Part shown: positions 1-11,907 of the stretch, in pieces | Layout of the letters: each line of letters starts with the position of its first letter | Numbering within the stretch: the first letter of the stretch is position 1 | Source of the DNA: a virus | Reading direction: 5' to 3' (one strand) | Length of the DNA stretch: 28,799 nucleotides | Virus record (IMG/VR): IMGVR_UViG_3300006737_000129 | Span: 1-28,799 of that record | Translations under genes and position numbers: made by a program | The notes under the pieces: model-generated | Told to the model about the DNA's origin: nothing | Seen by the model: only the letters and a program-made list of their open reading frames with translations | The model's database searches: none

Positions 1-935
1 CCGAAAATAAGTCCGCCCGAGTAGTCAAGCCACTGGCCGTCCACTGTGTTGTGATACATATATTCCCCACCTGTGTCGTAATGGTAGGGCATAACATTTC
101 CCCAAGTGTGGAACCAGAAGTCCTCTGTAAAGTGATAGAAGTCGAACCCGGCAACCACCGAGTAATTCCACTGGCGAGCAAGTTCATTTCTTTTTCTAGC
201 AGAGTATTCAGATAAGACTTCAGGGATAGTGACTGCTTCCCAGACCTCAGTGTTTGAAGCGACAACTGTTCCGTCTGGAGCCATGTATTCTCCAGTTGTA
301 AGGTTGTGAGTATATCCTTCTTGAAGCGCGAGGTAAGTGTAGTGGATATCTCCGTTTGCAAGCTTCCATTCAGCAAGTGGATCATATCCATAGGGCTCTG
401 AGATACGTTGAGCGACTCCTGCGTGGAGAGAAAACTTCTTACCGAGTTTAAGTCTATATCTTTGAGAGGCTTCAAAGTACTCAATGTCTGCAAAACCGTC
501 TTCATGGTATTCAACCTTTGCCATAACTTTGTCTCCGATGTAACGAAAAAAGTGGTGTTGATTAAAGAACTCTCGGCCTTGCTGTCTTTCGTATGTAACT
601 TCTCCAAGAAACTCTATGCCGTTACGCTTACCTATATTAGCGTCAGCAGACCAAGATGTTTCTGACCCGTCGTAAAAAGCATTAGCTCTGTTTTCATAGC
701 CAAACCTAGCGATCTTACGTACACCCATAGATAAGCTATAGTCAAACGGAGTTGCTACAGTCTCTTGAGTCAATCCGTCAGTAACAGAGTATATAGTCTG
801 ATCTGATACAGAGTTGCCTCCGTTAACAGCCGCATAGAACGTAGAAAACTTAAAAGCTTTCTTTAGCTCTTGAGCTTGTACTAAAGTACAACTAAATAGT
901 AAAGTTAGTAATAAACTTAATCGTGATAATAACAT
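1..935 (-). CDS. Exported (secreted or outer-membrane type) phage protein, 3' end outside window
   Basis: This frame opens with ATG at 935 and stays open for 311 codons to the edge, so the C-terminus is missing. Residues 1-21 form a signal peptide: Arg5, a Leu-rich core, then a VQA|QE signal-peptidase I site. Cys16 sits in a weak lipobox-like LFSC, so a lipoprotein is possible. The mature part alternates aromatic and polar residues (for example YSLSMGVRKIARFGYENRA, and Tyr/Phe/Trp pairs further on), suggesting a beta-barrel or other outer-membrane fold. I recall similar proteins in marine flavobacterial phages, without known function. The start lies 19 bases inside the end of the giant gene upstream, and no other Met occurs before about residue 70. 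G+C is near 49% in the lines I counted, against about 30% in the giant gene. A role in host-surface modification, superinfection exclusion or lysis is inference only. Confidence is high for a gene, low for function. Confidence 0.85.
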   Translation of the reverse strand, partial: MLLSRLSLLLTLLFSCTLVQAQELKKAFKFSTFYAAVNGGNSVSDQTIYSVTDGLTQETVATPFDYSLSMGVRKIARFGYENRANAFYDGSETSWSADANIGKRNGIEFLGEVTYERQQGREFFNQHHFFRYIGDKVMAKVEYHEDGFADIEYFEASQRYRLKLGKKFSLHAGVAQRISEPYGYDPLAEWKLANGDIHYTYLALQEGYTHNLTTGEYMAPDGTVVASNTEVWEAVTIPEVLSEYSARKRNELARQWNYSVVAGFDFYHFTEDFWFHTWGNVMPYHYDTGGEYMYHNTVDGQWLDYSGGLIF

Positions 936-3900
936 TTTCCTGATTTATTTTTTGTTTTCATTTTACAACGTTTACCGTCTTTCTTTATGTGTGAGCACTG
1001 TACTTCGTTTGCTTGCTGAGGAACTTCGTCGTGTACTGTACAGAAACTTTTACCATCTAAAGCCATGTTAGAACAGCGTTTGCCTGATCCGCTGACGGCA
1101 GCACACTGCACTTCAGTAGCGCCATCGTCTCTTTTTTCTTCTTGATCTAACTTATTGTCTTCGATAACTTGAGCATCTTCCTCCGCTTTTTCAATCTCTC
1201 TTTCTCTTTTCTTTTGCTCTCTTCTTTCTTCTGCTTCTGCCGCTTTTATTTCTCTAACTTCATCACGAGCTACCATAACGTCTTGGTTTTCTATTCCAAA
1301 ACTCCAACGGCTCCAACCTAAGAACATAGCTATTCTTTTCCAAGTTTCATGGTCAGAGTCCATAGACTCTCTTACATTCATGAACTTATTATAAAGCCTG
1401 TGAAGAGGTATGTTTGTTATAGCTTCTGTTGCGTTAAACAAAGACTCATACATTGGATTATCAATATCTGTTTTATCCATTTGATTAATGACGTCTCTGT
1501 TGTAGTGCCAAGTTCTTAAAGCACTAGCTAGTTTTCTAGCTTTAATACCTATTGGAGGAGATATATTAAGAGCTTCTAATATAATTGGTCCTTCTTCAGA
1601 GTCAGTGTAATACTTGTCATCATCAAGTTTTTCTTTTTGATCTATAAATTCTAGTATAACATTTTTAGTTGTAGATATAACAGCTCCTCCTATACCAGCG
1701 CCTCTCAACAAACTATCAAGCATGCCGTTTAGAAGGTTAGCTTTTTCATCTTCATCTATTTGATCTTCTTCGTCATCACCAAATAAAGCTGCAAATAAAC
1801 CTTGCTGCAGTCCGTAGAATATTAAGTTCTGCACCATGCCGTAGTAAACAATCTTTGACACGTTAGATTTAATATCACCTCTACCATTAACTAAATCTTG
1901 TGCAGCTCGCTTCATAAGTCTGTTATACTGCATTGTTACGTTTTGGAACGCTAGTATAATCTTACCAAGAGGAGAAGCTTGTTGTTGAGATATTTTATCT
2001 TCTCTTGTAGACTGCTGGCTTTCTTCAGCAATTTCTCTCATGTCTTCGTAAGCTTTTGCCTCAGCCTCTTGCTTACTTAAACCTTGCTCTTGATATGTTT
2101 TAATTCTATTTCGGTACATAGTAGCACCACCAGTAGCAATAGCTAAACTATCAGCTATTTGAGTAGGTGTAAAGCCTAGCTTAAGCATAAAAGCTATAGC
2201 TACTTTCATAGGGTTTTTAGCGCCTTGCAGCTCTCTTAATAACTCAGCCGCGTTTAAGTCAGTACCAATACCACCTCTTCTTTGTTTTAACCACGGTGAG
2301 TTAAATATCATAGACACGTCAGTCCAATATTGCTTTTGATTTGCAAACGCAGCAGCCGCTTTAAGTGGATTATTGTCATGCCAGTTTATAAAGTTGATGT
2401 TCGATATCATCTGGAGCATTGCTGATCTAGCGTTGAAGAACATCGTTGCACCTACAGAACCGTTCAACCACTGCGTAAAGGTGTTCATCAATCTGTTGCT
2501 ACCAAAGTTTCTGGTACTACCAGTCTTCATACGATACAACATATCTTCAATAGCTTCTCTATGATTACTACCAAATACAGCTTCTATCTTATTTAAGTTT
2601 TCTTCAGAAAATACTATGTCAGCATTTTCAATAAACTCAGTTAAGTATATTTTTCTAGCATCTTTCATAGCGTCTGCTATGTCTGATTCTATAGTACCAG
2701 CAGTCCAGTCGTTGCCAGGCTTTACATCGCCTTGAACAGACTGTTGGGTTATAGTGTTAATTCCGTCAGCATACGCCATTAAGTCAGCATCACCTTTTAC
2801 AATATTAACTAAGTTAGTTAAATCAGCTTGAGACAAACCAGGTATATCAACACCCATACGGTTCCAGTTGTATACTCTAATAGCATCTTGGTATGTAAAC
2901 TCTGAATTAGGTATATTTGCTCTAAGTCTAGACTTAACATTAGGTAAAGCTTTTTTAAGCTCTTTAACGTCATTTGCTATAGCTTGAGTTACCATGTCTA
3001 AATGTCTAACACCTCTAGCAAACGGATCGAATATGTTTTCTTTAAACCAAGCGTGATGCTTTTCACCAACTCTACCTTTACCTAAGAAAGGATATATAAG
3101 ACCTTTTAAATCTTCTGCTGAAGGTGGTAAAAAGAATTTAAATTTACCTTTATTTTTACCTCGTTTTCTAGCTTTAGCTGCAGAAAATCTTTTATTTCTA
3201 CCTACACCTTTAGTCTCTTCAAGTATAATATTAAAAGTTGAGTCAAGATCTGCTGCGCCTTCTTCAAGTATCTCTGCAAAAATTACAGGTCCTCTTCTAC
3301 TAAAGTTTAATTTAGCTTGTTGAACACTGCTTTTAACATCGTATTGATCTAGTAATTCTTGTACCGCATCTACGTTTTGCAAAGCGTCGTCAGCAAATCC
3401 TATATCATTATATCCTTCTGCAATAATATTCTCTGCTATCCAGTTAGCTTTAGCAGCACCAGTTGAGTTACCTAAACCAACAATATTTTTAATAGGTATT
3501 TTTAAACCTATTGCATCTAAAAACTCTTTAATAGCTGGTTGAGATTCTGGAGCTCTTGCTGTTAATATAAACGTATCTTTAGTTCCAAACTTCTTAGCTC
3601 TTTCTAAAGCTTTATCAAACATAGGACCAGGCTGACCTCCCGTTACTTTGTTAAACTCTGAGAAGTCTGGCGTCCAACCTTCAGCTACTAGATCAGCACC
3701 TTGTTTTGCAAAGTCTTCAGCGCTAACTATTTTAGTTTGACCTTCCTTATTAAATATAACATTAGACTTTGTAGTAGCTAACGTATCATCAAAGTCCCAA
3801 ATGCTAGCGCCTTTTCTACCTTCACGAGCGCTTTTAGAAAATAAAAGCTTATTAGCTACTGCTGCTTCTTTTATAGCCTGCTGTTTTCTATTTATAATCT

Positions 3901-6900
3901 CTGAAACAGCAGCGTGTCCTTGACCTACATTAACGTCTGTATTAGCTCCAATGCCTAGCAGACCAACCATTTTACCAGTCGCTACAGTAGCATTGTTGTA
4001 GTATCTCATCCAAGAAGGATCTGTTAAGCTTTGGTTTTCAGCTAAAGAGTTATTAAGCTTAGCTTCTTTAAGACCTTTGTCCATGCTATCAGATATAATA
4101 GCAACATCGTAGTTGGCAAACTGAACGTTTACATCTGATACACCACCTTCAAAAAGATGAGCATCAAATAGACCTAACACAACGTTAACTCTTGGCTGCA
4201 TGTGCTCGTATACAGGCTTTAACTTTCCTTTGTTTCTCTGCCTTAGCTTACGCTTATAGTCACGAAGCTGCTTAGCGTTCATGCCTTTAGTCTCTTGTTT
4301 CCAGTTTTCTGGCAATAAGTCTTCGCCTATGTACTTAGGCTGAGCAGCTCTAGCTAAGCTTGGGTTCATGTTAGACAACAAGTTAGCAGCTGCCATTTGA
4401 AGATCTTCAGATCCAGTTATACCGTTGTTGTATAAACTTACGTGAAACTCGACAAATCTATTTAAATGCTCTCTAGCCTCTAGGACACCCTTGCTTCTTT
4501 CGTCTACAGTATTGGTACCGTTAACGTAGTCGTCTACAACTTGATCTAGCACAGCAGGTCCTGACTGTGCATCTAAAGATAAGTCTGCTTGAGTAATGCT
4601 TACGGTTTGACCTTTATAAGTAATAGGCTTACTAAAGTCTATACTAACGCCTTGTTTAGTTTCTTTAATACTAAACTTTAGATCTGGATTATTTTCTAGT
4701 ACTTGCTCTAAAAACAATCTACCTGTGAATAGCTGAGCTCTTTTACCTCCGATCTTACCAGCGGTAGACATCTGCTGCTTTAGCATAGTCATTGACTTCA
4801 TTATCGCAAAACCAGCTTCTGCCTCGTTAGCAGATTCTTCGTCTATCCTAGCAACTTCTTGCCTCATGAAGGCCATAGCGTGGCCTTGATGCTCTTTTAC
4901 TTTAACTGGGTCGTTGTACAAAGATACAGTATCAACATTAGTGCCAAAGTATAGCTTGACTTTAGTGTCGTTATCTACGACTAATTTATTTATTTCTGTT
5001 TGTATAGCTTCTTGTCTAGTAACTTTACCTTTGTCTGTCTTAGGTATTTTGTTACTAACAGCTATAGCGTGTATTGCATTTACTAAATTATCTATTTGAG
5101 TTTCGTTAAAAAACTTACCGTACGTAGCTACAATAGCGCCTCTTATATTTTCTTTAGAATACTGTTCTTTTGCAGCTACATTATTGCCTTCTTCAATAAC
5201 TGTTATTGGTGATAATATATTTTGTGACAATTGACCAGATAGGCCTAGCAATATACCTTGATCTATCTCAGATCTCAATAGCTTACCTAAGCTACCAATG
5301 CCTTTTTTAGAGAACATAAGACTACCTCTACCTTCACCTAGTGTAGCCACAACAGATAAAGGATTAGTTTCGTTTTGTATAGCCTGCTGCCTCATAGTTT
5401 GATTAGCACTAATCATAGCTGCTTGAACAGCTATGGCTCTAAGCGCACCGTCAAACTTTTTGTTATTTATAAAGCTGCCATCAGGATTTATACCAAACGC
5501 TGCTTTAAACTCTTCAATACTTATATCTTGTCTTTTGTCTTGAGAAAACTTACCTGCTGCAGTTGCGCCAGACTTCATAGCAAGTCTATCACCTTTTACA
5601 TAAAACTTATTTAACAACGCTCTTGGTAAACCTGTAGCTTGGCCGCTTTGAGTTTGACCTTCAGGAAGCATGTCAATTAACTCTTGAGCAAATGAGTTTA
5701 CAAAAGTCTGAGCACTAGATCTTTCTGCGCTAGTTAAATCTTTGTTTTCATTTATTTTTTTAGTAGCTATACCAAACTCGTTACCTACTAGATCCATAAT
5801 ACCTTTTAAAGGCGCGTTGGTACCTACGACTAATTTCTTTACATCTTTGTAAGTTAAGCCTTGAATATCTACACCAGCTTTCTGTACTTCTTTATTTATA
5901 GCTGTAACTAGCTCTGGCGAAGCATTAATACTTTCTAAAAATACAGTAGCTCCTTCAACTTCTTTTATATCAATAGAGGTGTCTGCTCCAGTACCTGATA
6001 CTGTTTCAGCAAAAGTAACATTAGAGTCTTCTGCAAGCATAGCGTCTAGCGAAGTTGTTTCAGCTTGGCCAGACTCTTTATAAGCTTTCATAACGTCACC
6101 TTTAGCTCTATATATAATAGATCTACCAGCGCCGCCAGACACACCTGTCAACCAACCAAATAAACTATCGTTTTTAGTAGGATCAAAGTTTGTAAGTAAT
6201 CTTTCTTGTATATTTTCTTTTGCAGATCTAGTAAACTCTCGTAAAGCTTGAGGTGGTAAACCTAACTCTGTCATACCTTGCTGTACTAAACCGTCTAACA
6301 AAGGTGTTTCAACTACTTTTAGTAGCGCGTTGCTAAAGTCTATTGATCTTCGCCATGAGTCTAAGCTATTGTATTTTGGAGTTCCATTTTCGTTTTTAAC
6401 AAGCTGATCAAACTCTTGCATTAAATCTGGCTTAGATCTTATAGCATCTTCTATTGCTCTAGAAAAACTAGTTCTCTGCCTAGCTTCTTGTATAGCGGCT
6501 TGAGACTGAGCTAAAGAAACTTGTACAGGTCCTTTTGATTTTAATCTACCAGTAATACCTTTAGCAGCAGATCTTTGCAAAGTTCTATTAGTATAATTTT
6601 TCTTAATAGAATCTGAATAATTTACAACAAATCTTCTAACATCATCATCCGTGTTAAACTCTATGTCTCTACCTAAGCCTGTTCGCTGAACAAGTCTTTG
6701 TATGCTGTCTTTAATTCTACCACCAAACGTATCGGCAGATAAACTTACATCACCATCTTGTATAGCTTGAGATAAATTAGTAAGTATCTCTTCACCTCTT
6801 TGAGTGCCTTCGTACGAAGCTATAGTACGCTCAAAATTATTTTTAGCAGCTTCGCTTTTCCATTTAGCTTTGTCAGACATAGCGATGTCTAATAAATTCT

Positions 6901-9900
6901 GGCCTAATATACCTCTAGTAACAGGGTTTTGACGTATAGTATTATGCAAAAGAACATGCATAAACTCGTGAGATCCTGTGTTAAATTTACCATCAGTTAC
7001 AGAAGTTTGTTTGTTAACAAACATTTCGTATCTAACGAGCTTACCATCTTCAATAATAGGTAGCATAGCGCCATATTCTCTACTACCTTGTTTAGCAAAG
7101 TTTCTTAAATTATCTATATCACCTTGAGCGTCTGATTTTTCTTGCTCAGTAGAGTTATCATTATCTAGTACAGCTTGTTTATCAGCTATTGCTTCATCTA
7201 TACCTTCTTGGTTTTTTATTTGATCGCTGTCTAAGTATTCTTCAAACTGTTTTGTATTACCTTCTTTTATTACTACTTCAGTTCCAGTACGCTTAGTAAA
7301 GTCCGCGGCTCTTCTTTTAACTGAGTCCATATAAGACTTATAGCGCTTGTCTACTACGTTAGGAGGATATCTTTCTAGTATCTCATTTTTAATCTTCTGC
7401 TGAGACTCAAATGTTTTAGCAAGCTCTTCTAGTTTTTGGTTTTTCTCAGCTTCCGTAAGATTATTATCTTGCTGTATTTCTAAAGCGTCTTGTTTAGCTT
7501 TTCTTTGAACCTTGTCAGCTTTTATTAAAAGCTTTTTTTCTGGATTAGTAAGTAGATCTACTCTTTTTATGTCTAGCTCTATAGCTTCTGACTTCTCTAC
7601 ATGTATAGCAGCTAACTCATCTCTAGCTTCTTCTAGTAAAGCTTGATCTGTACTAGGATCGTTTGCTAATTTTTTAATTTTAGCTAATACAGTTTGTTCT
7701 CTAACGTCTAAATTAGCTAAAGTTCTCTGCGTGTCTATACTTTTAAAAGGCGCGTATACTTTAGCAAAAACTTGTGGTGTTTTTATACTAGTAGCTATTA
7801 GTGATCCAGTAGCAATTGCCTCTGTTACATTATCAAATACACCTACATCTTTCTTGCCTAATACAAAAATATCTGTTAAGTTGTTACCTATTTCAGCAAA
7901 ACCTTCCGTTATACTTTCTTCAGCAACATCTCCTAATTGATACCTAACAGTTTGGAAAGCAGACTTAGCGGTGTCACCAAACATAGATCTTCTTAACGCA
8001 GTGCCAAAACCGTCTTTTAAATCTTTTTGAAACTTTTTTCTAGCAGCAGTGCTAAATGAACCAGTAATACCGCTTCCAGTACCTTTAAGCATTTTAAAAG
8101 TAATTTTTTCAGATAAAGCTTCTACAACTCCAGACACTCCTGAGGCAAGAACCATCTGTGATAGACTATACTCTTCGCCGTATAAGCCTCCACTCTCTAC
8201 ATATAGCTCATTAGATTCTCTAAGCTCTTTGTATTTACTACCCATAGCGTTAGCACCCATAGTGCTTAGAGACATTATCTCAGCAACTGCACCAGCTCTT
8301 GCGGCAGTCATTTTCCCTGCAGCTAAAGCTCCTCTAGTAGCTACACTACCTATACCGCTAGTAGCTAGCATTAAAGCTAGTTGAGGTGCTTGTTGAGCCA
8401 CGGTCATTAAAGCCCATTCTCCAAAATCACTAAAGCTGTCTATGTCACTCATAGAGACTGTTTGTCTTACATCATAAGATGCACCAAACTCTCCTTCAAT
8501 TAAAGCGCCAAAGCCATAACGCATAACACCTTCTTCTTGAAACTCATCAATCCATTTTTGAACTCTTCTGTCACCGAACATTGTCTCAGCGTACCAGTCG
8601 TCAATAGCTTCATCAGCTTCTTCTCCAAAAACTTTACCTGCTAGGTAAGAAGTAACGCCTAATGAAACGTCTCCTACAATACCGCCTAGCTCTATAAAAC
8701 CTTGACCAAGCTCTACAACAGCATTTGCAAAAGCGTCTGCTGCTAAAAAAGCTAAACCATTCTTATCGTCAATAGTCTCCATGTACCACGATAAGTCCTC
8801 TGCTTCAAGTTCAAGCTCTCCTAGCTCGTTCTGTATATTTCTAGTAACTTGTAAGTTTACTTTAGCAGCATCCATATACACCTGCACGTTATCGTATGCA
8901 GTTGTATATATACCTTTTATTCTTTCAAGTTCTTTTTTAGCAGCGTCAAGCTCTTCTTTATTTTTATATTCTTTGCTAGTTAGTTTTTCAACAGCCTCTT
9001 CAAAAGTTAAACCATCAAATCTTAAATTGTTTAAGTGTTCTATGGCTTTGTTTAGCTGTTTACCGTTGTTTTCAGTTTCACCTTTTATTTCTTGAAGCGC
9101 ACCTATTTTGTTTTTGATTGTTTCATCAATCGTCTCCCATCTTTCTGCGGCGTCTTCTTCAAGATCTTCTTTAAATTTTTCTTCACTATACCAAGTGCTA
9201 GACTTTGCGCTGATATTTTCTTGTAAGTTTTTTTGTATTTGATCACCTTTGTAATATGAGTAAAGGTCGTTATACATTGTACTTATAAGATCAGGGTTAC
9301 TTCTATCGATGTTTTCAAACTCATCGTAAGCGTCGTAACCTTCTTGATATAAAGTTTGTGCAACTTCAGAGCGAAAAAGAGAATCACGGCCTTCAGCGTA
9401 CAACCTTTTTTTCTCGTCTTGAGTCAAAGCTTCTACGCCGTTTGTTACTAGAGCGTATTCATCGTAGCGCTTAATCATATTTGCTATAGCAACTTTTACT
9501 CTAGCATCGGCTTCAACCTGCTCAATTAATTGTCGATCTTTTTCTTCGGCTTGCATGCTTACCATGCCTTTCTTAGCAATATCTGCCGCTTTATTTGTTA
9601 TCTCAATATCTTGCTCTTCAGTTGGTCTAGACAACTCAAGGCTTTGCTCGAGAGCAGAAGTATAATCAAACGCGTTTTCTTTTAACCAGGCGTTTAAATT
9701 GTCAACATCATCTTGTTCTGCGTTTCCTTCTGTAGATATTTTAAATTGTTCACCAGTCTTAACTGATTTAAAAGTAAGCTCTCCAGCCCAAAACTCGTCT
9801 TCTAAATCTAAAACTTCAATACCAAGTTTTTTTAAATCGCTTTCGTTAAAAGCTCTTTTAGCCCAGTTTTCTTTCCCAAGCATATCAAGAGTTATAGTAG

Positions 9901-10837
9901 GTAGTTGAGCAGCAGCAGAGTCTTTTTTACCTTGCTCTTGATCTTGGTCTAGTTTCTGTTGTTTTTTCTGAACTTCAAGAGCGCGATTTATTTGTTCGTT
10001 TTCAGTATTTCTATTTTCGTCTGCTAAGTAAACACCTTCTATACTTTCCCAACCCTCTTTATCACCAAGCGTTATGTCAAACATAAGTTGCTCATAACCT
10101 CCTTCGTAATTTTCATCAACAACTGACTTGTGAATAGCGTATGCTACGCCAGTTTTGTTATTCTCGGTATATGCAATGTCGTCTACAGAATAACCGTCTA
10201 CTGCAAGAGAAGCTCTTTCACTATCAATATTGTTTTGCCTTGACTTAATAGTATCTGTTTCTTCTTCTACGTCGACAATTTCTTTAGATACAAAATCTAT
10301 TTGATCTGTTTGAAGAGATAATTGTGAGCCTAGTTTAGCAGCTTCGTAAGGATCTAACCCATCAGCTTCCCACATGAAGTACCCTTCGTTATCTACTTGT
10401 CTAAGACCTGGCGCTAAGTCAGACGGTACATTTCTATTTTTACGTAAAGAATAATTATCGCTTGTATAGTTACCTTCAGAGTCTAAATTATAATCTTGAG
10501 CACTGTTGCCAAGATTAGAATTTTCATTCCAGAAGTCTTGGTGCTGTAGGTTATTTGCTGCTATTAAAGCTTCTTCGCCTTGTAATGTTTCACGCTCTGG
10601 TGCTTCAGGTTTTTGATCTTCTTCAACCTCTGGCTCTGGAGATACAGTAATACCGTCAGGTGAGTATGCAGTTAAGAACGACTCAAAATCATTGCTATAT
10701 AATTCATATTGACTTACAGTATCAAAAACTTTTTGCTGATAATCCGGCCTTAAATACTGCCTTTGAAAATCTTCAAACGTTCTTGTATACAACCCTTCTT
10801 TTACAAGGGTATCATATAACTTTTGTAATTCGTTCAT
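917..10837 (-). CDS. Giant 3306-residue multidomain virion/ejection-type protein (zincin, HAD, twin zinc motifs)
   Basis: Role inferred: internal virion protein delivered into the host with the DNA. Residues 7-28 and 37-58 are a duplicated motif (L-Y...F-E-x-F...Y) with a 30-residue period. About 60-700 is charged and probably helical. Hydrophobic Ala/Gly-rich segments lie near 700-733, 800-867 and 891-911. An HEFMH zinc-protease motif is at 1290-1294, followed by EE at 1349-1350, a candidate third ligand. A HAD-type domain has DFDDT at 2348-2352, Thr2426, Lys2463 and DD at 2483-2484, so all four motifs are present. About 2780-3030 is a membrane-like region reminiscent of the C-terminal domains of large polyvalent phage proteins. 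Cys/His motifs at 3245-3269 and 3281-3305 share the spacing C-x9-C-x10-C-x2-H. The ATG overlaps the upstream stop (TAATG), so translation is probably coupled. A virion RNA polymerase is possible by size and position, but I found no DxDxD motif. Confidence 0.92.
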   Translation of the reverse strand: MNELQKLYDTLVKEGLYTRTFEDFQRQYLRPDYQQKVFDTVSQYELYSNDFESFLTAYSPDGITVSPEPEVEEDQKPEAPERETLQGEEALIAANNLQHQDFWNENSNLGNSAQDYNLDSEGNYTSDNYSLRKNRNVPSDLAPGLRQVDNEGYFMWEADGLDPYEAAKLGSQLSLQTDQIDFVSKEIVDVEEETDTIKSRQNNIDSERASLAVDGYSVDDIAYTENNKTGVAYAIHKSVVDENYEGGYEQLMFDITLGDKEGWESIEGVYLADENRNTENEQINRALEVQKKQQKLDQDQEQGKKDSAAAQLPTITLDMLGKENWAKRAFNESDLKKLGIEVLDLEDEFWAGELTFKSVKTGEQFKISTEGNAEQDDVDNLNAWLKENAFDYTSALEQSLELSRPTEEQDIEITNKAADIAKKGMVSMQAEEKDRQLIEQVEADARVKVAIANMIKRYDEYALVTNGVEALTQDEKKRLYAEGRDSLFRSEVAQTLYQEGYDAYDEFENIDRSNPDLISTMYNDLYSYYKGDQIQKNLQENISAKSSTWYSEEKFKEDLEEDAAERWETIDETIKNKIGALQEIKGETENNGKQLNKAIEHLNNLRFDGLTFEEAVEKLTSKEYKNKEELDAAKKELERIKGIYTTAYDNVQVYMDAAKVNLQVTRNIQNELGELELEAEDLSWYMETIDDKNGLAFLAADAFANAVVELGQGFIELGGIVGDVSLGVTSYLAGKVFGEEADEAIDDWYAETMFGDRRVQKWIDEFQEEGVMRYGFGALIEGEFGASYDVRQTVSMSDIDSFSDFGEWALMTVAQQAPQLALMLATSGIGSVATRGALAAGKMTAARAGAVAEIMSLSTMGANAMGSKYKELRESNELYVESGGLYGEEYSLSQMVLASGVSGVVEALSEKITFKMLKGTGSGITGSFSTAARKKFQKDLKDGFGTALRRSMFGDTAKSAFQTVRYQLGDVAEESITEGFAEIGNNLTDIFVLGKKDVGVFDNVTEAIATGSLIATSIKTPQVFAKVYAPFKSIDTQRTLANLDVREQTVLAKIKKLANDPSTDQALLEEARDELAAIHVEKSEAIELDIKRVDLLTNPEKKLLIKADKVQRKAKQDALEIQQDNNLTEAEKNQKLEELAKTFESQQKIKNEILERYPPNVVDKRYKSYMDSVKRRAADFTKRTGTEVVIKEGNTKQFEEYLDSDQIKNQEGIDEAIADKQAVLDNDNSTEQEKSDAQGDIDNLRNFAKQGSREYGAMLPIIEDGKLVRYEMFVNKQTSVTDGKFNTGSHEFMHVLLHNTIRQNPVTRGILGQNLLDIAMSDKAKWKSEAAKNNFERTIASYEGTQRGEEILTNLSQAIQDGDVSLSADTFGGRIKDSIQRLVQRTGLGRDIEFNTDDDVRRFVVNYSDSIKKNYTNRTLQRSAAKGITGRLKSKGPVQVSLAQSQAAIQEARQRTSFSRAIEDAIRSKPDLMQEFDQLVKNENGTPKYNSLDSWRRSIDFSNALLKVVETPLLDGLVQQGMTELGLPPQALREFTRSAKENIQERLLTNFDPTKNDSLFGWLTGVSGGAGRSIIYRAKGDVMKAYKESGQAETTSLDAMLAEDSNVTFAETVSGTGADTSIDIKEVEGATVFLESINASPELVTAINKEVQKAGVDIQGLTYKDVKKLVVGTNAPLKGIMDLVGNEFGIATKKINENKDLTSAERSSAQTFVNSFAQELIDMLPEGQTQSGQATGLPRALLNKFYVKGDRLAMKSGATAAGKFSQDKRQDISIEEFKAAFGINPDGSFINNKKFDGALRAIAVQAAMISANQTMRQQAIQNETNPLSVVATLGEGRGSLMFSKKGIGSLGKLLRSEIDQGILLGLSGQLSQNILSPITVIEEGNNVAAKEQYSKENIRGAIVATYGKFFNETQIDNLVNAIHAIAVSNKIPKTDKGKVTRQEAIQTEINKLVVDNDTKVKLYFGTNVDTVSLYNDPVKVKEHQGHAMAFMRQEVARIDEESANEAEAGFAIMKSMTMLKQQMSTAGKIGGKRAQLFTGRLFLEQVLENNPDLKFSIKETKQGVSIDFSKPITYKGQTVSITQADLSLDAQSGPAVLDQVVDDYVNGTNTVDERSKGVLEAREHLNRFVEFHVSLYNNGITGSEDLQMAAANLLSNMNPSLARAAQPKYIGEDLLPENWKQETKGMNAKQLRDYKRKLRQRNKGKLKPVYEHMQPRVNVVLGLFDAHLFEGGVSDVNVQFANYDVAIISDSMDKGLKEAKLNNSLAENQSLTDPSWMRYYNNATVATGKMVGLLGIGANTDVNVGQGHAAVSEIINRKQQAIKEAAVANKLLFSKSAREGRKGASIWDFDDTLATTKSNVIFNKEGQTKIVSAEDFAKQGADLVAEGWTPDFSEFNKVTGGQPGPMFDKALERAKKFGTKDTFILTARAPESQPAIKEFLDAIGLKIPIKNIVGLGNSTGAAKANWIAENIIAEGYNDIGFADDALQNVDAVQELLDQYDVKSSVQQAKLNFSRRGPVIFAEILEEGAADLDSTFNIILEETKGVGRNKRFSAAKARKRGKNKGKFKFFLPPSAEDLKGLIYPFLGKGRVGEKHHAWFKENIFDPFARGVRHLDMVTQAIANDVKELKKALPNVKSRLRANIPNSEFTYQDAIRVYNWNRMGVDIPGLSQADLTNLVNIVKGDADLMAYADGINTITQQSVQGDVKPGNDWTAGTIESDIADAMKDARKIYLTEFIENADIVFSEENLNKIEAVFGSNHREAIEDMLYRMKTGSTRNFGSNRLMNTFTQWLNGSVGATMFFNARSAMLQMISNINFINWHDNNPLKAAAAFANQKQYWTDVSMIFNSPWLKQRRGGIGTDLNAAELLRELQGAKNPMKVAIAFMLKLGFTPTQIADSLAIATGGATMYRNRIKTYQEQGLSKQEAEAKAYEDMREIAEESQQSTREDKISQQQASPLGKIILAFQNVTMQYNRLMKRAAQDLVNGRGDIKSNVSKIVYYGMVQNLIFYGLQQGLFAALFGDDEEDQIDEDEKANLLNGMLDSLLRGAGIGGAVISTTKNVILEFIDQKEKLDDDKYYTDSEEGPIILEALNISPPIGIKARKLASALRTWHYNRDVINQMDKTDIDNPMYESLFNATEAITNIPLHRLYNKFMNVRESMDSDHETWKRIAMFLGWSRWSFGIENQDVMVARDEVREIKAAEAEERREQKKREREIEKAEEDAQVIEDNKLDQEEKRDDGATEVQCAAVSGSGKRCSNMALDGKSFCTVHDEVPQQANEVQCSHIKKDGKRCKMKTKNKSGKCYYHD

Positions 10838-11907
10838 TAGTTATTCTTCTTCTCGTCTAGTGCTAGAGACTTCTTAGTTACATAGGCATTGTGACCGTTA
10901 GTCCATACCTGAAAACGTTTAGCAGCCATGTAAGCCGCTATTTCTCTTCTACCTGCTTCGTAGCCCTCAGGAGTTCTAAAAAAAGCTAATATTTCTTCAG
11001 CAGTAACCGTGCCATTGCCATCTTTATCAGCCAACTGTTCGTTAGCTTCGCTAAGAGGATATACTAGCTCACCAGCTTGCAAATCTCTGTCAGCACCACC
11101 ATCGTCTCTTAATCCAAAGTCGTGGTCACCATTTAAAAAATCCTCTTTAAAACTAGTAGATCCAGCCCAAGCATCGTCAATATATCCTCCAATATTGTTT
11201 TTATTAATCTGAGATAAAGCTTCGTTTGCAGCTTTAGCTTGATTAAAGCTTAGCCCTTGGTAACCCCTCATTTCATCACTGTCAAGAGTTTCAAACCACT
11301 TGTTTGATCTAGCTGTAGGCGCAATACCACTAGCTACCATCTCGTCAACTTCTCGTTTAGTAACAACTCTTCCATTTATCTCAAATCCCATCTCACCGTC
11401 TGGTGTCATAACAAGCTTAGCGCTACCATCATTAGAAGCTAACGCGCTTAATATAGCTTTATTTTCAGGTGAAAGGCTAGCGCTCCAGCCTACACCATCG
11501 TTTACTTCTTTAGCTTGCTGCATCACATCGGTCCAACCTTGTAACGACTTAGCTCTTTGAGCTTGATCTTGCAACATCCTAGCAGCGCCAGCAGTATTAC
11601 CGGTAGCTATAGCTTTTACATACTCCTCTTTATAACCTGCTTCCATGGTCTGAAACTCATCATATAGCTGACCAGAAGCCCATTGACCTCTATCACCCAT
11701 TTTAGAAAAGCCAACATCCCAAGCAGCTTCACCCGCTTGAAGAGTTTTACCTTTCTGGTTTACCATTGTGCCAGCACCTGTTAATAGCTCTCCTCTAGTT
11801 GTAGCTAGATCTTCTAAGCCAATAGGTTTCTCAGCTCTCTTTACTCTGTCTAATATTTGAGAATCAATAGCGTAATCTAAAGTTCTGCTTGCTGCTTCTT
11901 TACTCAT
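10837..11907 (-). CDS. EF-hand-containing virion-associated protein, 356 residues
   Basis: I do not recognise the overall family. The protein is mostly polar and helical, with Ala/Gln/Lys-rich stretches. Residues 294-305 read DKDGNGTVTAEE, a textbook 12-residue EF-hand calcium loop: Asp, Asp, Asn, Thr, Thr and Glu sit at positions 1, 3, 5, 7, 9 and 12, and helix-forming residues flank both sides (SEANEQLA before, ILAFF after). I see only one such loop, so calcium binding might need dimerisation or another partner. The gene overlaps the end of the upstream Gln/Ala-rich protein by 8 bases, and its stop overlaps the start of the giant gene (TAATG). It is therefore the middle member of a translationally coupled trio. 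Position suggests an internal or ejected virion protein; that is inference from context. Confidence 0.85.
   Translation of the reverse strand: MSKEAASRTLDYAIDSQILDRVKRAEKPIGLEDLATTRGELLTGAGTMVNQKGKTLQAGEAAWDVGFSKMGDRGQWASGQLYDEFQTMEAGYKEEYVKAIATGNTAGAARMLQDQAQRAKSLQGWTDVMQQAKEVNDGVGWSASLSPENKAILSALASNDGSAKLVMTPDGEMGFEINGRVVTKREVDEMVASGIAPTARSNKWFETLDSDEMRGYQGLSFNQAKAANEALSQINKNNIGGYIDDAWAGSTSFKEDFLNGDHDFGLRDDGGADRDLQAGELVYPLSEANEQLADKDGNGTVTAEEILAFFRTPEGYEAGRREIAAYMAAKRFQVWTNGHNAYVTKKSLALDEKKNN

Follow-up and report, generated by a model that had tools for sequence, protein, structure and literature searches.

The question raised by this locus is what role may be played by a single protein of 3306 residues that carries the motifs of a metallopeptidase and of a phosphatase in one chain. 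The locus is the IMG/VR virus record IMGVR_UViG_3300006737_000129, and the window, meaning the whole stretch of DNA that was analysed, is 28.8 kb long (28,799 nucleotides). Its main genes lie on the minus strand and include a portal gene (PHROG match, E 1.4e-99). The giant gene is a single open reading frame (ORF) of 3306 codons, also on the minus strand, the plus strand across the same positions being riddled with stops. A first-pass annotation had placed a 3306-residue ORF at 917-10837; this is correct, with the addition that it is encoded on the minus strand, and when that strand is read all the residue positions cited there are exact.

Our answer, which we regard as an evenly balanced call, is that the gene encodes a giant polyvalent protein, likely a minor virion protein, in which a zincin would free parts of the chain and a HAD phosphatase would heal 3′ ends early in infection. 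The features concerned are:

917-10837, minus strand: giant ORF, 3306 amino acids, near the end of the run of virion genes, with the portal and virion genes on the same strand
6398-7300, minus strand: zincin-like metallopeptidase region, aligned and modelled over residues 1180-1480
6956-6970, minus strand: HEFMH, residues 1290-1294, with H, E and H invariant (n = 42)
6788-6790, minus strand: Glu1350, predicted third zinc ligand, invariant (n = 42), in model helix 166-181
3305-3814, minus strand: HAD phosphatase domain, residues 2342-2511, from alignment and model
3782-3796, minus strand: HAD motif I, DFDDT, residues 2348-2352
3728-3766, minus strand: cap site, approximately residues 2358-2370, short in the window protein and the site of insertion in relatives
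3554-3565, minus strand: HAD motif II, LTAR, residues 2425-2428, invariant (n = 49)
3449-3451, minus strand: HAD motif III, Lys2463, invariant (n = 49)
3386-3391, minus strand: HAD motif IV, Asp2483-Asp2484, invariant (n = 49)
1292-3277, minus strand: conserved all-helical C-terminal module, residues 2521-3182, matched in 92/92 loci and helical in the model

The names of the HAD motifs and the term cap site follow common usage.

Conservation of the two motif sets

Relatives were collected by a scan with the whole protein, which gave 13 viral loci, by a scan with the HAD-to-C-terminal alignment, which picked out 599 candidate stretches, at least 455 of them coding for a relative (80 kept), and by a scan with HAD alone, which gave at least 450 matching stretches (80 kept). 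ORFs of more than 1500 residues, deduplicated where they had the same last 300 residues, made up 112 unique relatives, 10 from the whole-protein scan and 102 from the HAD-based scans. The HAD-based scans used the pattern DFDDTLA and none from the zincin region, so that motif I in their loci is present partly by construction. None of the patterns of the whole-protein scan contained DFDDTLA, although one sits in the zincin region beside HExxH; DFDDTL is present in all 13 loci fetched in this way.

Both motif sets named in the first-pass annotation are where it put them. HEFMH is at 1290-1294, with the glutamate pair at 1349-1350 on conserved alignment columns, and DFDDT at 2348, Thr2426, Lys2463 and the aspartate pair at 2483-2484 fall exactly on conserved columns. 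HEFMH and DFDDT are each expected approximately 0.02 times per shuffle of the giant protein. HExxH occurs in 104 of the 112 relatives, against 24 of 2240 shuffled proteins, and in 94 of the 102 that were fetched without any zincin-region pattern. It precedes the HAD motif by 810-1506 residues (median about 1008).

The zincin alignment (n = 42) consisted of the window protein and 41 of 58 sequences found by BLAST, with identities to the window of 16-97%; membership was limited to what BLAST could find, so that the alignment leaves out the more distant half of the 112 relatives. Five columns are invariant, namely a glycine, H1290, E1291, H1294 and E1350, and it is this invariance across 42 sequences that makes Glu1350 the predicted third zinc ligand. 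The model has strands at 77-84 and 87-96, a helix at 108-122 containing HEFMH, and a helix at 166-181 in which residue 171 is Glu1350. This is the arrangement expected for a zincin, with strands first, next the helix that holds HExxH and last the one with the Glu. Foldseek and VIA rows for this model are dominated by long N-terminal helices. One VIA alignment, to a structure that we regard as a zincin, extends over the whole domain (Z 4.3, 136 residues), too low to give a family name, and Peptidase_M78 from Pfam touches 6 of the 42 members (best E 0.012). By conservation the region 1180-1480 is near certain to be a zincin, while by fold it is unproven.

The HAD alignment (n = 49) comprised the window protein and 48 of 98 eligible sequences. 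Its invariant positions are the DxD, the threonine of motif I, the threonine of motif II, the lysine of motif III, the aspartate pair of motif IV and the arginine of LTAR. The full motif set was found by pattern in 111 of the 112 relatives; the exception, L085, has Ser-Lys where the pattern needs Ala-Lys. The segment that was modelled covers HAD and the C-terminal module (predicted local distance difference test, pLDDT, 76.7). Foldseek matched it to HAD phosphatases (phosphoserine phosphatases) at a probability of up to 0.99, though with E of 0.1-0.2. The HAD-type phosphatase of the first-pass annotation is thus borne out by invariant motifs I-IV and by fold matches in both Foldseek and VIA.

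The remainder of the chain is much less constant. BLAST coverage of the window protein is complete for residues 2401-2800 (112/112, by selection) and almost so for 2801-3200 (108-111), whereas each of the first eight 100-residue blocks is covered in at most 8 of the 112. Likewise, when 92 loci, whose contigs were not dereplicated, were searched by tblastn, all 92 matched HAD and the C-terminal module and 39 the zincin region, while residues 1-1179 were matched in 16. Judged by these matches, the giant gene is a mosaic, with an N-terminal part that varies among phages.

A whole-protein Pfam search and a PDB sequence search gave nothing over the cut-off, and Pfam searches of the N-terminal parts of 20 relatives at E 0.001 gave SHOCT alone, in one of them. 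In the phage collection, tblastn with residues 1-1973 found no match, and with the remainder two weak ones, to an unannotated faecal phage fragment and to a 462-kb phage. The latter, a metagenomic phage, has from L020:9959 onward a 187-residue frame that matches the HAD hidden Markov model (HMM) at E 4.8e-13 and is apparently a stand-alone protein. The C-terminal and zincin HMMs matched none of 12 named-phage proteins and no other searched frame; short C-terminal BLAST matches were found to Gundel_1 and to the faecal phage fragment. In bacterial and archaeal genomes, 25 stretches fitted two exact peptide patterns and none encodes a relative, a scan that distant relatives could escape.

The HAD domain, Pnkp and the cap site

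The nearest predicted fold by VIA, which re-ranks just the first 1000 matches of Foldseek, is the 3′-phosphatase of T4 Pnkp and Pnkp1. Rows 1-8 are all T4 Pnkp or Pnkp1/Rnl/Hen1 entries (Z 12.4-13.5, root-mean-square deviation 2.5-3.4, 118-133 residues), and the next HAD, at Z 11.5, is about 1 to 2 Z below them. The PHROG family phrog_415, ‘polynucleotide kinase’, matches 23 of the 49 HAD members (best 5.4e-7, window 7.2e-5). The motif II arginine, invariant as LTAR in this family, is present as SGR in T4 Pnkp. It is concluded from the fold predictions that the HAD domain works like a Pnkp phosphatase, and from the sequences that it is not a member of that family; the giant family moreover embeds its HAD in a very large protein.

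A second line of evidence comes from the cap site. The spacing from motif I to LTAR is 77-78 residues in 102 of the 112 relatives, 277 in seven, and 145, 214 and 217 in one each. The 277 form contains a P-loop kinase of polynucleotide or zeta type. The insert of one such relative (L009) matches AAA_33 at 4.5e-11 and Zeta_toxin at 4.1e-8 in Pfam, and polynucleotide kinase at 3.6e-8 in PHROGs. A scan with the kinase found at least 184 relatives, of which 80 were kept; in 44 of these together with the seven (n = 51), the kinase lies inside HAD in 45 (38/44 and all seven), and as three pairs share a contig this makes 42 contigs. The distance from P-loop to LTAR is 243 in 44 of the 45 and 241 in the other, corresponding to a single insertion site inside HAD. 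On this sequence evidence, a kinase inserted at one site inside HAD in 42 contigs is new here.

The inserts of the 214 and 217 forms (L035 and L012) are weakly similar to ADP-ribosyltransferase (ART), with ART-PolyVal at E=0.11 for L012 and otherwise by eye; no ART family in PHROGs matched either. The 145 form (L028) has a 67-residue insert at the same site. An intein at this position was considered and dropped because the inserts proved to be P-loop kinase or ART-like.

Pnkp enzymes have their kinase and phosphatase laid out in tandem, whereas the relatives of the giant carry the kinase inside the HAD domain. The two resemble each other in that the P-loop kinase of the relatives, in the same chain as HAD, matches AAA_33, the Pfam family common to the T4 Pnkp kinase. 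A related arrangement is described in the PKN-HAD RNA-repair enzymes of jumbo phages, which combine a HAD phosphatase with a polynucleotide kinase, usually N-terminal, and are congruent with RNA ligases (PMC7824862). These share with the present family the coupling of HAD to a kinase and a link to RNA ligase, but the relatives of the giant hold the kinase at the HAD cap site, within what is probably a virion protein. In the open-licence literature available, no earlier description was found of polyvalent proteins that contain a HAD phosphatase, or of a HAD cap that carries an inserted kinase.

The link to RNA ligase is as follows. Of 33 records taken to bear the kinase, 3 contain the RNA ligase family PF09414 (two over the curated cut-off and one under; 32 of the 33 fit the kinase-in-HAD pattern, and L190 does not), against none of 69 others, which are records without an insert or with a different one (19 + 50). 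For records of at least 48 kb the figures are 3/9 and 0/24. Fisher p is 0.03 for all records and 0.015 for the longer ones, with kinship ignored; as the records are fragmentary, some of the phages near-identical and the kinase form probably one lineage, this association is a hint only. A search with RNA_lig_T4_1 gave 0/24, but its control matched nowhere, and it therefore has no bearing. Together, the kinase inserts and the co-occurrence of RNA ligase suggest virion-delivered healing of nucleic-acid ends.

The same data could be read differently, although we consider it rather doubtful: HAD may be a nucleotide or small-molecule phosphatase, acting on nucleotide immune signals or in nucleotide recycling, and the inserts may be zeta-type sugar kinases acting on cell-wall precursors. 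Non-Pnkp HAD families are close behind in VIA (Z 11.5 and below), and DUF2608 is the commonest Pfam match of the HAD members (23/49, best 6.4e-4); however, the first eight VIA rows are all Pnkp, and RNA ligase is found only in kinase-form records. As for the sugar kinases, besides the Zeta_toxin match of L009, one relative in BFVD is named UDP-N-acetylglucosamine kinase, and zeta-like kinases have been reported in polyvalent proteins (PMC5512222). Against this, AAA_33, which the T4 Pnkp kinase also matches, outscores Zeta_toxin on L009, the sole insert tested.

We regard as established the zincin and HAD motif sets, a HAD fold in the predicted structure, the conservation of the C-terminal module and the insertion of a kinase in relatives. 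From these, packaging, injection, cleavage, substrate and activity are what we infer in proposing end healing. The phage would be a relative of podovirus-like flavophages, and the giant a minor virion protein, either cargo or ejection protein. The zincin would cut the polypeptide during assembly or after entry, so freeing the enzyme parts. HAD would then act early in infection, ahead of phage gene expression, and take 3′-phosphates off the ends of broken RNA or DNA; one use might be to reverse the damage done by host nucleases that cut tRNA. In the sister proteins, the P-loop kinase at the HAD cap site would bring both end-healing activities into one polypeptide.

The polyvalent class and the probable link to the virion

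Phage polyvalent proteins are very large, combine several unrelated enzymes, contain a zincin with HExxH and a later Glu, and are encoded with virion genes (PMC5512222). The window giant resembles them in size, in its unrelated enzyme domains within one chain, in its zincin and in its setting among portal-type virion genes. Among the 50 BFVD matches listed for the model of HAD and the C-terminal module, eight bear the name PolyVal or large polyvalent protein, the strongest at E 4.1e-9, and a structural protein of Gundel_1 is also listed. These names bear out the polyvalent frame suggested in the first-pass annotation, and on the modelled fold, together with the matches of its pre-zincin module to annotated structural proteins (below), the giant is best filed as a phage polyvalent protein. 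None of the LPD or PolyVal models in Pfam matches the window protein. Unlike the proteins of PMC5512222, in whose main text a term search found no HAD, phosphatase or polynucleotide kinase domain, the giant belongs to a family in which HAD is a fixed part.

For zincins of this kind, processing of the long polypeptide has been proposed, whether ahead of packaging, inside the head or once the host has been entered (Iyer et al. 2017, PMC5512222). P1 DdrB, a zincin protein, is cleaved ahead of packaging (PMC5512222). This protein and the N4 virion RNA polymerase are giant or head-packaged proteins with a zincin, as proposed for the window giant, but with different cargo enzymes (PMC5512222).

Further evidence for a virion protein comes from the region ahead of the zincin:

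7313-8500, minus strand: pre-zincin module, residues 780-1175, from which an HMM of 16 sequences (window and 15 others) was made

With E-values set for a notional 100,000 sequences, this HMM matched Gundel_1 gp074 (1e-28), phi46:3 gp120 (2e-28), phi38:1 gp101 (7e-26) and elemoF gp18 (2e-25), all four of which are annotated structural proteins of cultured flavophages. The region is Ala/Gly-rich, and its composition may therefore lift the scores; the ‘structural’ note on phi38:1 gp101 in GenBank derives from similarity. (The phi38:1 gene numbers in PMC13288928 differ from those of the GenBank record.) Like the window giant, phi38:1 gp101, phi46:3 gp120 and elemoF gp18 close the run of virion genes or lie near its end, whereas Gundel_1 gp074 is located before the terminase. 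Both elemoF gp18 and Gundel_1 gp074 have HExxH as well as the module, as in the window giant, while HExxH and the HAD motif are both missing from phi38:1 gp101 and phi46:3 gp120. None of the four has a HAD motif or a HAD HMM match.

The pre-zincin HMM matched neither the giant of MW202828 nor that of Maribacter phage Panino. The former (L018:741-12320, minus strand) is syntenic; it lacks a HAD motif and carries HEFGH twice, at a spacing of 885 residues. The last giant of Panino (L016:14229-19718, minus strand) is annotated as a tRNA methyltransferase, has neither HExxH nor a HAD motif, and has a stretch of approximately 240 residues in common with phi46:3 gp120.

That the pre-zincin module is common to annotated structural proteins, two of which (phi38:1 gp101 and phi46:3 gp120) lack both motifs, implies that the enzymes are dispensable for the shared role. 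The giant could consequently be mainly structural, an internal core or ejection channel, with the zincin and HAD domesticated and used in assembly only. We think this unlikely, given that the catalytic residues are invariant although identity in the zincin region drops to 16-25% in most relatives. Very improbable, in our view, is an early-expressed non-virion effector whose gene merely happens to be at the end of the structural run. No mass-spectrometry evidence for the giant protein has been seen, which would fit such an effector, but its position, its size and its homology to structural-annotated proteins argue otherwise, as do the virion genes on the same strand and the next gene, which overlaps the giant by one base.

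A number of results tell against virion-delivered end healing. The mean pLDDT of the zincin model is a modest 66.5, and Foldseek found no zincin for it at E <0.001. The zinc protease of the first-pass annotation therefore stands on its invariant HExxH and Glu and on the expected secondary structure, but not on a match to a known zincin fold; structure prediction followed by fold search, the check proposed there, returned the expected order of strands and helices, with no zincin in Foldseek at that threshold and the one low-scoring VIA alignment. For HAD the same check gave the expected fold, with Pnkp at the top of VIA but absent among the 50 Foldseek matches listed. HAD_PNKP (PF25109) does not match the window protein, either in a search of its HAD domain that allowed E up to 1 or in another that allowed E up to 0.1. 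Nor does it appear in the Pfam families listed for the 49 members (25 of 30), whereas in a control it detects T4 Pnkp at 2.8e-59. Against the HAD HMM, T4 Pnkp reaches 1.8 bits and scrambled copies of it up to 3.3, and hhalign of HAD with T4 Pnkp aligned only motif I, with a probability of 16%. These failures are the reason for writing ‘works like’ Pnkp and not ‘is’. The first-pass description as ‘polynucleotide 3′-phosphatase-like’ accordingly survives in the VIA fold, in the PHROG match of 23/49 members and in the kinases inserted in relatives, but not in the sequence tests for membership of the Pnkp family. The window protein itself has no insert at the cap site and no kinase in its chain. 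For the L009 insert, an uncharacterised PHROG family (1.3e-19) and an ATPase (9.5e-10) rank ahead of polynucleotide kinase, and against T4 Pnkp the P-loop stretch of the kinase insert alone aligns. The RNA ligase association rests on three records and ignores their kinship. The virion RNA polymerase of N4, a similar giant that also has a zincin, enters the particle without being cleaved (PMC5512222). No statement on virion mass spectrometry of homologues of the giant was found in the literature listings and passages searched, those of PMC13288928 and PMC8776804 included. PDB profile searches with the HAD, HAD plus C-terminal and kinase alignments gave nothing relevant, the top rows for the HAD profile (E 0.011 and 0.071) being coiled-coil designs by name.

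Other features, neighbouring genes and significance

Three further motifs were located in the giant protein:

4193-4207, minus strand: EHMQP (EHxxP), residues 2211-2215
1031-1105, minus strand: Cys/His motif 1, C-x9-C-x10-C-x2-H, residues 3245-3269
923-997, minus strand: Cys/His motif 2, C-x9-C-x10-C-x2-H, residues 3281-3305

EHxxP occurs within 450 residues ahead of the HAD motif in 62 of the 112 relatives and in 0 of 112 shuffled proteins, in 58 of the 62 at 115-211 residues, and its His never varies when 20 N-terminal parts are aligned. It is perhaps another active site. The two C-terminal Cys/His motifs reported earlier are indeed present; the pair was found by pattern in 7 of the 13 first relatives, and the region matches DUF5763 at E=0.14, short of its cut-off. 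The ‘membrane-like’ segments of the first-pass annotation are not borne out in the window protein, being no more hydrophobic than shuffles: no 19-residue window reaches a Kyte-Doolittle mean of 1.3, and shuffles average 4.4 such segments. Among relatives, 61/93 have such a segment before the zincin and 60/93 in the C-terminal module, as raw counts without a shuffle baseline. The C-terminal module, together with HAD, matches polyvalent proteins in BFVD.

Four genes of the window match the PHROG annotation ‘virion structural protein’ and belong to the same run and strand as the portal and the giant; one of these we take, by its position, as the capsid protein. Relatives of the portal in named phages number 87 records (68 Flavobacterium, 15 Cellulophaga, 2 Tenacibaculum, 1 Maribacter and 1 Caudoviricetes sp.), and those of the capsid candidate 85, with the same make-up apart from Tenacibaculum.

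Directly upstream of the giant, and overlapping it by one base, is a gene at 10837-11907 (minus strand). It is matched in just 7 of 92 related loci, and in all five of these that were shown the N-terminal part of the giant is also matched, which suggests a dedicated partner of the giant. At the other end, a gene at 3-935 (minus strand) overlaps the giant gene by 19 bases; it has a signal-peptide-like start and its end is beyond the window. Its protein has no PHROG match and is matched by tblastn in 66 of 92 related loci, even where the N-terminal half of the giant is unmatched. Between the window and L007 this secreted protein is 98% identical, while residues 1-1480 of the two giants give no match. 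Judged by eye it is perhaps an outer-membrane barrel, with a possible role in superinfection exclusion or receptor masking.

While the general outline of polyvalent proteins is known, most of what is said of their payloads is prediction; in the present family a catalytic core can be pointed to, with residues that can be mutated. The family recurs widely, in at least 455 of 599 candidate viral stretches. More tentatively, we suggest a widespread family of uncultured phages in which a self-cleaving virion giant brings in an end-healing enzyme, the HAD cap site serving to dock whole enzymes (a 5′-kinase or an ADP-ribosyltransferase-like domain), so that a Pnkp with its kinase inside its phosphatase would be present at entry. 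A kinase within a phosphatase, if true, would be an unusual build for a repair enzyme. The family also points to a testable idea, that phages may bring RNA or DNA end repair along with them rather than making it.

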